Shown here in pieces: positions 8,843-10,912 of a stretch of DNA of 11,017 bases. Made by a program: the position numbers and the translations under genes. The notes below the pieces were generated by a model that saw only the letters and a list, made by a program, of their open reading frames with translations, did no database searches and was not told the origin of the DNA. Every line of letters begins with the position of its first letter. The first letter of the stretch is position 1. Origin of the DNA: Candidatus Altimarinota bacterium (lineage in GTDB: Bacteria > Patescibacteriota > Gracilibacteria > JAHISY01); the NCBI GenBank assembly GCA_023142645.1, contig JAGLJE010000034.1, forward strand, positions 1-11,017, written 5' to 3'.

Positions 8843-9139
8843 TTAAATATTAATTTTATTTACATCAATCGATTTTGCACCAACGGTTGTGACGATTGCT
8901 TTTTTCGCCGGTGAGCGTTTTTGAATTTCTCGACCGCGACCGACTTTTTTTGTTTTCGGAAGAATTTTAACGGTGCGGACAGACTTTATCTTTACTCCAT
9001 AATATTTTTCCACCGCATCTTTCACTTCAATTTTGCTCGCATCATTCTTGACTTGAAAAGTGAATTTCCCAGCTTTTTGACCACCGAAAGCCTTTTCGGT
9101 GTCTAACGGTTTCACGAGAATTTGATGAAGTCGACTCAA
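8843..9139 (-). CDS. rplW: 50S ribosomal protein L23
   Basis: L23 sits at the exit of the peptide tunnel and is the docking site of trigger factor and SRP. The 98-residue product has the family start (LHQILVKPLDTEKA), the central FTFQVKNDASKIEVKDAVEKYYGVKIKSVRTV, and a basic hairpin region (KTKKVGRGREIQKRSPAKKA). Length is normal, no tail. The start is TTG; no better start lies nearby. It begins 22 nt after the CCA end of the tRNA-Gly gene, so after tRNA processing its message would start close to the initiation codon. Confidence 0.95.
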   Translation of the reverse strand: MSRLHQILVKPLDTEKAFGGQKAGKFTFQVKNDASKIEVKDAVEKYYGVKIKSVRTVKILPKTKKVGRGREIQKRSPAKKAIVTTVGAKSIDVNKINI

Positions 9140-9161: not shown

Positions 9162-9238
9162 TGGAGCGGGCGAGCGGAATCGAACCGCCGTCTCCAGCTT
9201 GGAAGGCTGGCATAATAAAACCGTTATACGACGCCCGC
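9162..9238 (-). tRNA. tRNA-Gly (anticodon UCC), CCA encoded
   Basis: The minus strand folds into a full cloverleaf: acceptor stem GCGGGCG (9238-9232) pairs with CGCCCGC, the anticodon stem CCAGC/GCUGG carries loop CUUCCAA with anticodon UCC, and the T arm has loop UUCGAUU. The discriminator is U73 (9165), and CCA is encoded at 9164-9162. The D stem is weak (GUAU/UUAU) and the D loop is 10 nt, with the conserved A14 and GG present. UCC reads glycine codons GGA and GGG. The first 15 nt (9238-9224) are also the last four codons and stop of rplD on the same strand; the gene is followed after 22 nt by rplW. It lies inside an otherwise canonical ribosomal-protein operon and must be processed from that transcript unless it has its own promoter. 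Confidence 0.95.
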
Positions 9239-9952
9239 AGTTTCTTTTTTTGAAACAATTTTTTTCGCGGGTTCTTTTTTCTCAACTTTATTAACCTTTT
9301 CGACTTTATCAACTTTCACGACCTTTTTTTCAATCTTAAAAATTTTCCCTGCTTCTTCGAGTGCGCTTTTTTCAAACAAAATTTGATCGAATTTCGTGAG
9401 ATCGTGCGGATTCAAAAGATTCACAAGCAACGGTTTCACGAATTCGAGATTACGAGACGACTTCGCCAGAATATCGTTGCGGCTGTGAACTACGAGCAAA
9501 CTTCTGCTTTTCGGCAACGAGTTGCGGAGTTTTTCGAACGCTTTCGTTTTCGGATTTTCGAGCGTGAAACTTTCGAGAGCGAGAATTTTCAAATCTTTCG
9601 CTTTCACAGTAAGCATTGAGGCAAGTGCAAGTCGGCGCTGTTTTTTCGGCATTGCTTTCGTATAATTTTTCGTATTCCGCGGTCCCCACGCTATTCCACC
9701 TCCACGAAGAATCGGTGAACCACGATCACCTTTTCGCGCTTTCCCTGAACCTTTTTGCCTCATAATTTTCGCTGTCGAACGTTTCACCTCTCCTCGCCGC
9801 AATGTGTGAGCGGAAGGCTGTCGTGCATTAGCGTGCTGTCGCACGAGCGCAGAGTGGACGAGAAATTCATTCACTTTTGAAGCGAAGAGATGAGCGGGTA
9901 ACTCAATCTCTCCTGTTTTCTTGCCGTCTTGAGAATAAAGGGGTGCTTTCAA
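9224..9952 (-). CDS. rplD: 50S ribosomal protein L4, C-terminal tail overlapping a tRNA gene
   Basis: L4 reaches the constriction of the peptide tunnel and, in E. coli, represses the S10 operon. The 242-residue product has the signature QKGSGKARKGDRGSPILRGG and the following MPKKQRRLALASML (about 66-113), and a normal C-terminal fold to about 203. Residues 208-242 are a Lys/Val/Glu tail that includes KVD-KVE-KVN-KVE. The last four codons (Ala-Gly-Val-Val) and the TAA are the first 15 nt of tRNA-Gly; the tRNA starts exactly at the Ala239 codon. The start is TTG, which gives the family start. The gene lies 77 nt after the 88-residue membrane protein gene rather than next to L3. Confidence 0.96.
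   Translation of the reverse strand: MKAPLYSQDGKKTGEIELPAHLFASKVNEFLVHSALVRQHANARQPSAHTLRRGEVKRSTAKIMRQKGSGKARKGDRGSPILRGGGIAWGPRNTKNYTKAMPKKQRRLALASMLTVKAKDLKILALESFTLENPKTKAFEKLRNSLPKSRSLLVVHSRNDILAKSSRNLEFVKPLLVNLLNPHDLTKFDQILFEKSALEEAGKIFKIEKKVVKVDKVEKVNKVEKKEPAKKIVSKKETAGVV
9281..9316 (-). repeat. Four 9-nt tandem repeats in the rplD tail
   Basis: In the coding sense the units are AAAGTTGAT, AAAGTCGAA, AAGGTTAAT and AAAGTTGAG, coding for KVD, KVE, KVN and KVE. This looks like growth of the tail by slippage or unequal exchange. Confidence 0.65.
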
Positions 9953-10029: not shown

Positions 10030-10296
10030 CTATTCACAGCCAACTTTCTTGAGTTTAATTTGGGTTTCACCCGCAAAAATTGGGAAGGCTTCGCAAGTTT
10101 CAGCTTGCCGGATAAGTTGATCGACTATATCGACTTGAGCTTGCTGGTAAGCGGCGGTCGTTGCTTCCCGCATTTCCGCTTGATCGAAAGTGTAAGACTG
10201 CCAAATGCTTTTTCCGATGAATATGACTGAAAAGATGATCCACACTGCGAGAATGATTTGACTGAGATTTTCAGTCGGAAGTTTTAAGAATTTCAT
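10030..10296 (-). CDS. Small single-pass membrane protein between L3 and L4
   Basis: An 88-residue gene sits between rplC and rplD, which are normally adjacent. One membrane segment is clear at about 11-32 (LSQIILAVWIIFSVIFIGKS). The N-terminus carries two Lys before the segment and the following part is acidic, so the positive-inside rule suggests N-in, C-out. The C-terminal part is a likely helix (about 38-66) followed by a short strand-rich piece with Cys68 and Cys87, which could form a disulfide if outside. It starts with ATG 31 nt after L3 and ends with TAG; no Shine-Dalgarno sequence. I do not recognise a named family; similar small one-segment proteins with a C-terminal Cys pair seem familiar from CPR genomes, but I cannot verify this. 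Confidence 0.75.
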   Translation of the reverse strand: MKFLKLPTENLSQIILAVWIIFSVIFIGKSIWQSYTFDQAEMREATTAAYQQAQVDIVDQLIRQAETCEAFPIFAGETQIKLKKVGCE

Positions 10297-10327: not shown

Positions 10328-10912
10328 TCAATTGGCTTCCACTCGAATGAGCGAACCAATTGAACCGGGAATCGGACCTTTCGTGACGAGCAGATTTTTC
10401 TCAATATCCACAGAGACTAAGAAATTACTTCTTCTCGTGACTTTAGCATTTCCCATCCGCCCGGGAAATCGTTTGCCTTTCGGAGTGCGACCGGTACCGG
10501 TCACCGCGCCTGAACTCGAACCGGGTTGGCGATGATGATGGCTGCCGTGCGTCTCCGGACCGCGAGAGAAGTTGTGACGTTTGATCACTCCTGCGAAACC
10601 TTTTCCTTTTGACCAGCCAATGATTTTCACATCTTTAACTTCCGCGAATTCTGCGACCGAAACTTTCTCACCTTTCTTTTTTTCAGAGTCCGCACTGATT
10701 TTAAACTCTGCGAGATAGCGGAATTTTCGCGTTTTTTTCGGCTTTTTTAATTCATCGAAACCGAGGATTAACGCGGGATATCCGTCATGTTCGGTTGTCT
10801 TGATTTGAACAATCTCATTAGGAGAACATTCAATGACCGAAACGGGGATCACACCACCATCATCCGCGATAACGCGAGTCATGCCGACTTTTTTTCCGAG
10901 GATTCCAGACAT
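10328..10912 (-). CDS. rplC: 50S ribosomal protein L3
   Basis: L3 is an early 23S rRNA binder that reaches towards the peptidyl-transferase centre. The 194-residue product, slightly short for the family, starts MSGILGKKVGMTRV and has SKGKGFAGVIKRHNFSRGPETHGS (split over 101-124), the loop HHHRQPGSSSGAVTGTGRTP, and KGKRFPGRMGNAKVT (145-159), ending in GSIGSLIRVEAN. It ends with TGA, at the point where the family normally ends, which shows that UGA is a stop here. ATG start; the upstream sequence is pyrimidine-rich (CCTCTTCC) and has no Shine-Dalgarno site. No S10 gene end is recognisable in the 105 bases upstream. Confidence 0.98.
   Translation of the reverse strand: MSGILGKKVGMTRVIADDGGVIPVSVIECSPNEIVQIKTTEHDGYPALILGFDELKKPKKTRKFRYLAEFKISADSEKKKGEKVSVAEFAEVKDVKIIGWSKGKGFAGVIKRHNFSRGPETHGSHHHRQPGSSSGAVTGTGRTPKGKRFPGRMGNAKVTRRSNFLVSVDIEKNLLVTKGPIPGSIGSLIRVEAN

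Follow-up and report, generated by a model that had tools for sequence, protein, structure and literature searches.

In the stretch of DNA analysed here (the window, a whole contig of 11,017 bases from an assembly of 791,606 bases in 165 contigs that is 71.65% complete), the reading frame of rplD, the gene for ribosomal protein L4, ends inside the tRNA-Gly(UCC) gene that follows it on the same strand and takes its only stop codon from the D arm of this tRNA. The same 15-nt overlap, with the same ending A-G-V-V-stop, is found in five of the six genomes compared within the family. The best explanation, to which we would give slightly less than an even chance, is that the rplD frame captured a stop codon and that a transcript common to both genes is processed in an order of events in which translation comes first. 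An essential ribosomal protein whose sole stop lies inside an apparently single-copy tRNA would represent a natural test of how one RNA is split between a message and a structural RNA, as well as of the way in which ribosomes deal with a message that has lost its stop. It would also illustrate a simple route to new C-terminal tails, namely by reading into a tRNA that holds a stop in one frame.

Geometry of the overlap

Ribosomal protein genes form an S10/spc-like cluster on the minus strand of the window, the relevant features of which are collected in Table 1. The 3' end of rplD reads GCG GGC GTC GTA TAA, and these codons are at the same time nucleotides 1-15 of the tRNA, the first nucleotide of which coincides with a codon boundary of L4. 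The original prediction of an exact same-strand overlap, 15 nt long, starting at a codon boundary and stopping at nucleotides 13-15, was borne out. ARAGORN and Rfam both confirm the tRNA, which has the anticodon UCC and a CCA end, the Rfam model RF00005 covering positions 9165-9238 with 59.1 bits as compared to a gathering score of 29. The rplD frame is matched by Ribosomal_L4 of Pfam (PF00573, 4.7e-53), with the domain ending at residue 200, and by TIGR03953 of NCBIfam (178 bits, cut-off 130). Only frame 0 meets an early stop within the tRNA of the window (at nt 15), while the other two frames extend beyond the tRNA and stop at nt 83 and 97.

Table 1. Positions of rplD, the overlapping tRNA gene and neighbouring features in the window.
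Feature	Positions	Strand	Remarks
rplD (ribosomal protein L4)	9224..9952	-	242 codons, TTG start, ends A-G-V-V-UAA; matches PF00573 and TIGR03953
L4 tail, residues 206-238	9239..9337	-	rich in K, E and V; reaches from the conserved core up to the last base ahead of the tRNA
Overlap of rplD and tRNA-Gly(UCC) nt 1-15	9224..9238	-	5 codons including the stop
UAA stop of rplD	9224..9226	-	tRNA nt 13-15 (9226-9224), D arm; TAA there in E. coli tRNA-Gly(UCC) too
tRNA-Gly(UCC)	9162..9238	-	CCA encoded at 9162-9164 (ARAGORN); sole Gly(UCC) tRNA found in the genome
rplW (L23)	8843..9139	-	TTG start 22 nt 3' of the tRNA; ORF and profile match
rplC (L3)	10328..10912	-	upstream gene of the S10-like cluster; recognised by sequence and place; orthologues in 6 of 6 genomes
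Two adjoining sigma70-like matches within the L4 tail	9258..9312	-	possible private tRNA promoter; not conserved

A view on 61 tRNAs, of which 22 belong to the window genome and 39 to 30 stretches holding a part of the tRNAs of the other family genomes, shows that a frame of at least 100 codons enters the 5' end of a single one, which is the tRNA behind rplD. Five other tRNAs are entered by frames of 60-84 codons, which we take to be chance occurrences. Among 24 classmates of other families (DNA was available for 30 of 43 genomes matching the tRNA pattern, and six of these 30 came from the family of the window), the longest open run before the Gly(UCC) tRNA amounts to 58 codons. As judged from the sequences, the overlap is in excess of what chance would be expected to produce.

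Two further observations concern the cluster as such. Most of its gene starts in the window lack an obvious Shine-Dalgarno sequence by eye, and a frame of 88 codons lies between rplC and rplD (10030-10296, minus strand), in which a probable membrane-spanning segment and, close to the end, two cysteines were noticed by eye. Orthologues of this frame are present in the four other genomes of the genus (43-71% identity); it was not found in the family genome from another genus, and it had no match in Pfam or NCBIfam.

Occurrence, gain and losses

The host clade, made up of tiny and uncultured bacteria, belongs to the Patescibacteria, the records of close relatives being labelled Patescibacteria group bacterium, Candidatus Gracilibacteria or Candidatus Peribacteraceae. 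The window genome (G000) was compared with five other genomes of its family, four from the same genus (G001-G004) and one from another (G005). All six share the same-strand order rplD, tRNA-Gly(UCC), rplW, with the tRNA inside the gap between the two protein genes, and the distance from the tRNA end to the rplW start is 22 nt in the window, 14 in G002, 15 in G005, 53 in G004, about 130 in G001 and about 146 in G003. The genomes sharing the overlap are the window genome itself, G001, G002, G004 and G005, the L4 proteins of the latter four being 83, 75, 68 and 63% identical to that of the window, respectively. The alignment of relatives, which had been proposed as a check, thus revealed a conserved overlap and not a one-off case. 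The L4 cores of the window and G001 differ by a dS of 0.96, and all other pairs are near or past saturation. A pattern search for Gly(UCC) tRNAs gave exactly one match in each of the six family genomes, always the tRNA behind rplD; over 60 genomes, the same pattern, which misses some forms, matched once in 43 and not at all in 17.

The exceptional family member is G003, where the original tRNA is broken: its first 8 nt remain at the end of rplD and about the last 23 nt lie downstream, with other sequence between them that contains a complete, different tRNA-Gly(UCC), and L4 ends in A-G-V-P-P-S-S-A. The nested arrangement (about 2180-2420 of stretch L034) may be due to a newcomer that replaced an essential tRNA, or to a chimeric assembly. 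TCCGCC-NN-GGCGGA palindromes occur near it and are absent from the matching stretches of four relatives.

Outside the family, no tRNA was found near rplD in the stretches fetched around this gene from 73 genomes (24 + 29 + 20, the last being the new ones among 22 loci), 72 of which are informative, the contig of G031 ending about 13 nt past the L4 match; most of these stretches extend 1-1.5 kb to each side, and some are cut by contig ends. An L4 match was absent in one of 60 genomes searched (G045). Among 353 genomes of the class, no further close relative was detected, the best L4 match dropping from 5e-119 to 9e-78. In part of the class, the L4 frame continues through TGA codons (for example 15 in G016 and 9 in G044), fitting a use of TGA as a sense codon; the rplD matches of the six family genomes are free of internal stops, and rplC of the window ends with TGA.

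At the protein level, a C-terminus A-G-[V/I]-V is present in 27 of the 43 L4 proteins with E values up to 1e-60 (26 with AGVV, one with AGIV), and in none of the 78 further L4 proteins from a wider search covering the best 120 of 1,430 matches. The DNA of the tRNA was read for five of these 27 proteins and the ending serves as a proxy for the other 22; the proxy was correct in all five genomes with readable DNA. A tree was calculated from 205 core columns, excluding the tail, for 56 rows, consisting of 42 of the 43 close proteins and 14 hand-chosen ones of the 78 wider matches; P0043, a fragment ending in AGVV, was left out. All 26 overlap rows fall within one clade of 47 rows with a support of 100/100. 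The minimum number of changes on the tree is seven, and Dollo counting gives one gain and six losses, a number that is approximate because several deep forks of the tree are open. The losses affect P0010, P0013, P0018 (the protein of G003), the group of P0014, P0020 and P0021, that of P0036, P0041 and P0048, and a clade of 12 rows. An earlier tree of 42 rows that included the tail columns required six changes and was replaced by the tail-free one. With some six losses, the overlap is not indispensable. As a separate observation, P0020 and P0021 are identical over the core columns of the tree and their C-terminal ends differ right past it, which looks like a recent exchange of the end of rplD.

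Origin of the stop codon and of the L4 tail

TAA or TAG is present at nucleotides 13-15, in frame 0, in the Gly(UCC) tRNAs of nine of the 24 classmates of other families, and the E. coli tRNA, whose form GCGGGCATCGTATAA would encode an ending AGIV, carries TAA at these nucleotides. Any reading frame that enters a tRNA of this kind in frame 0 will thus meet a stop immediately. The stop is a native feature of many tRNA-Gly(UCC) species, and we take it to have been captured by the rplD frame.

The stretch of L4 that leads into the tRNA mostly accompanies the overlap. All 26 overlap rows have 20-53 residues past core residue 205, as compared to 1-16 residues in 18 of the 21 non-overlap rows of the clade (the exceptions being P0040 with 22, P0018 with 30 and P0010 with 44), although a test of independent pairs on supported branches found three pairs, too few for the sign test to reach significance. 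Together with the end of the Pfam domain, the short non-overlap proteins confirm the earlier statement that the L4 core is complete well before the overlap. The sequence of the tail is highly variable among the overlap genomes, while the position of its end is fixed. Long charged C-terminal tails were also noticed in rplV, rpmC, rpsQ, rplE and rpsE (L22, L29, S17, L5 and S5) of the window and its relatives, and these vary in length and end.

Many single mutations would close the frame before the tRNA is reached. Among the 33 codons of the window tail, 19 are one substitution away from a stop; the five overlap genomes offer 11-20 single-base routes to an earlier stop and G003 offers 12, and in all six genomes a single change would also turn either of the two codons that precede the last one before the tRNA (AAA, AAG, GAA or GAG) into a stop. 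The overlap-bearing branch length of the tree amounts to 5.23 amino-acid changes per column. A rough neutral estimate built on this length, scaled by how dS relates to protein change in one pair (window and G001) and employing Jukes-Cantor distances and parsimony, predicts about 131-239 truncations of the tail, as compared to six losses of any kind, a wide gap even for so coarse a figure. This points to selection that would keep the tail frame open. The estimate itself does not tell whether such selection would act on the tail as protein or on entry into the tRNA. A hint in favour of the latter is that tails are short in most rows lacking the overlap, and another that other charged tails of the cluster (L22, S17, L5 and S5) shift their ends. 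The native origin of the stop, the tie between most tails and the overlap, and the several losses had all been missed in the original prediction.

Proposed use of a shared transcript and comparison with known systems

The course of events that we tentatively prefer begins in an ancestor of the clade, where, within the cluster of ribosomal protein genes, a single tRNA-Gly(UCC) gene would have come to adjoin the 3' end of rplD. Extended by a short charged stretch, the L4 frame would then have entered the tRNA and adopted U13-A14-A15 as its sole stop, as supported by the sequences and the tree. One operon transcript would give rise to both L4 and the tRNA, with ribosomes that finish L4 occupying the 5' half of the tRNA and blocking its folding or cutting. 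Between or after ribosomes, the tRNA would fold and RNase P would cut at the codon boundary before nucleotide 1. If one transcript serves both products, this cut would produce an L4 message without a stop; it would end L4 synthesis from that RNA and separate an L3-L4 message from another one starting with L23. A ribosome caught by the cut would lose nothing but A-G-V-V, four residues that are not part of the L4 core. It speaks against this course that, with 60/20 nt of context, a structure other than the cloverleaf is predicted as the minimum-energy fold in three of five genomes. RNase P RNA, found in G001-G005, speaks for it, and the failure to find one in the 71.65% complete window genome against it. 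A more far-reaching version, which we regard as possible if rather doubtful, is that selection holds the L4 frame open since ribosomes must enter the tRNA. In that case, translation would delay the release of the tRNA, the RNase P cut would come at the very end of the lifetime of each rplD message, and tRNA maturation and L4 output would be coupled for each molecule, even in some members without the rescue systems that were sought.

The distribution of these rescue systems does not support the earlier proposal that the overlap is a burden solved by tmRNA, if this is understood as a general rule. Both tmRNA and SmpB are present in the overlap-bearing genomes G000, G004 and G005 and in G003, which has no overlap (ARAGORN supports the Rfam tmRNA matches in G000, G003 and G005, and made no call for that of G004). 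Neither a tmRNA above the cut-off nor SmpB was found in G001 (96% complete) and G002 (97%), two drafts which have retained the overlap; in 14 control genomes, the Rfam tmRNA search passed the cut-off in nine and the SmpB search in ten (10/14 bacteria). G001 is the nearest relative of the window with DNA by L4 identity, and absence in both G001 and G002 would need two losses or hidden genes. A search with the GGQ release-factor domain detected no short ArfB-like protein in the six family genomes, its matches being long frames of 363-376 codons only (none in G000, one in G001 and two each in G002-G005), and RqcH was not found above the cut-off in any of the six, the NFACT_N matches being short and below it. 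Thus, tmRNA seems not to be required for the overlap, and the pattern suggests that L4 messages without a stop either seldom arise or do no harm. This would be expected if translation came first and the cut last, if only four tail residues were lost by a caught ribosome, or if the tRNA had a promoter of its own.

The last of these options implies that a promoter inside the L4 tail makes most of the tRNA, that the operon message is rarely cut, and that the overlap is a compact arrangement with little conflict. We consider it possible, but on the whole improbable. In the window, the ends of two sigma70-like matches lie 46 and 19 nt ahead of the tRNA, and as many promoter-like sites in the tail were obtained in one of 500 codon shuffles, and the failure to detect tmRNA, SmpB, a short ArfB-like protein or RqcH in G001 and G002 likewise suggests that few nonstop L4 messages arise. 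However, the 150 nt before the tRNA contain no such site in G001, G003, G004 and G005, G002 has one further upstream, and the five sites on both strands of the wider window region are near chance (shuffle mean 3.2, sd 1.5). A conserved internal promoter was rejected, as sites are present in two of the six genomes only. It is unlikely, in our view, that the overlap is a functionless accident held in place by a useful L4 tail whose nearest stop happens to be in the tRNA. Such an origin would agree with the stop being native to the tRNA, with the charged tails on L22, S17, L29, L5 and S5 in the same clusters, and with the expectation that any translated tail keeps its frame; it agrees less well with the association of tail and overlap, within the limits of the three independent pairs, and with the fixed end of a strongly varying tail, given that other tails shift theirs.

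The original prediction further proposed a regulatory switch, in which the supply of glycine-tRNA is tied to ribosomal protein synthesis by the ratio between translation of L4 and cleavage by RNase P. The geometry would indeed make the two uses of one RNA mutually exclusive if there is one transcript, and a tRNA that is single-copy by pattern and an arrangement retained for long are what a switch might call for, but neither a sensor nor a conserved alternative fold was found and six losses have been tolerated, which leaves this proposal with little probability. Complements to tRNA nucleotides 1-9 in the tails of five genomes, as needed for a conserved tail-tRNA fold, did not go beyond codon shuffles. 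A hairpin pairing CCCGC in the tail (window and G001) with GCGGG of the tRNA was seen in folds and rejected as a conserved element, complements as long being present in 28, 37, 225, 222 and 141 of 300 codon shuffles each. An artefact of assembly or annotation, finally, is hardly credible: three matching public records are metagenome assemblies, but separate assemblies share the 15 nt in five genomes, and 27 of 43 proteins have the same kind of ending. A viral-contig scan gave no match.

No report of rplD or another bacterial ribosomal protein gene ending inside a tRNA was found among the titles and abstract openings listed from open-licence papers. Gene finders that bar overlaps between coding sequences and tRNAs may miss such cases. 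In E. coli, the tRNA-tufB operon has the order tRNA-Thr, -Tyr, -Gly, -Thr, tuf in one annotated record. Among E. coli tRNAs, the tRNA-Gly of this operon comes closest to the one described here (82.1% identity); it contains TAA at nucleotides 13-15 and lies upstream of a translation gene; however, the tRNAs precede the protein gene in this operon, and no annotated protein gene overlaps the tRNA-Gly. In the tyrT operon of the same species, the protamine-like tpr frame is said to overlap the 3' part of a tRNA, reportedly described by Altman et al. in 1981. As in the window, a protein frame overlaps a same-strand tRNA, but the overlap in tyrT concerns the 3' side and a doubtful small protein, whereas here it concerns the 5' part and the protein is an essential ribosomal one.

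The tRNA punctuation of animal mitochondria, where partial stop codons are completed by the poly(A) tail, offers another parallel. According to PMC9674279, tRNAs mark the sites at which mitochondrial transcripts are cut, and a rescue factor is needed for nonstop mRNAs. The likeness to this account is that a tRNA is located between two same-strand messages in all six family genomes, and that its excision would set mRNA ends and may leave stopless messages. The difference is that we deal with a bacterial operon in which the stop consists of three tRNA bases and no incomplete stop codon is involved: after a cut at nucleotide 1 of the tRNA, the message would end on a complete sense codon (ACT, or TCT in G001) and not on a partial stop. 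Same-strand overlapping genes of bacteria (PMC2542354) likewise share bases at a gene junction, but both partners encode proteins there, whereas the overlap described here joins a coding sequence to a structural RNA.
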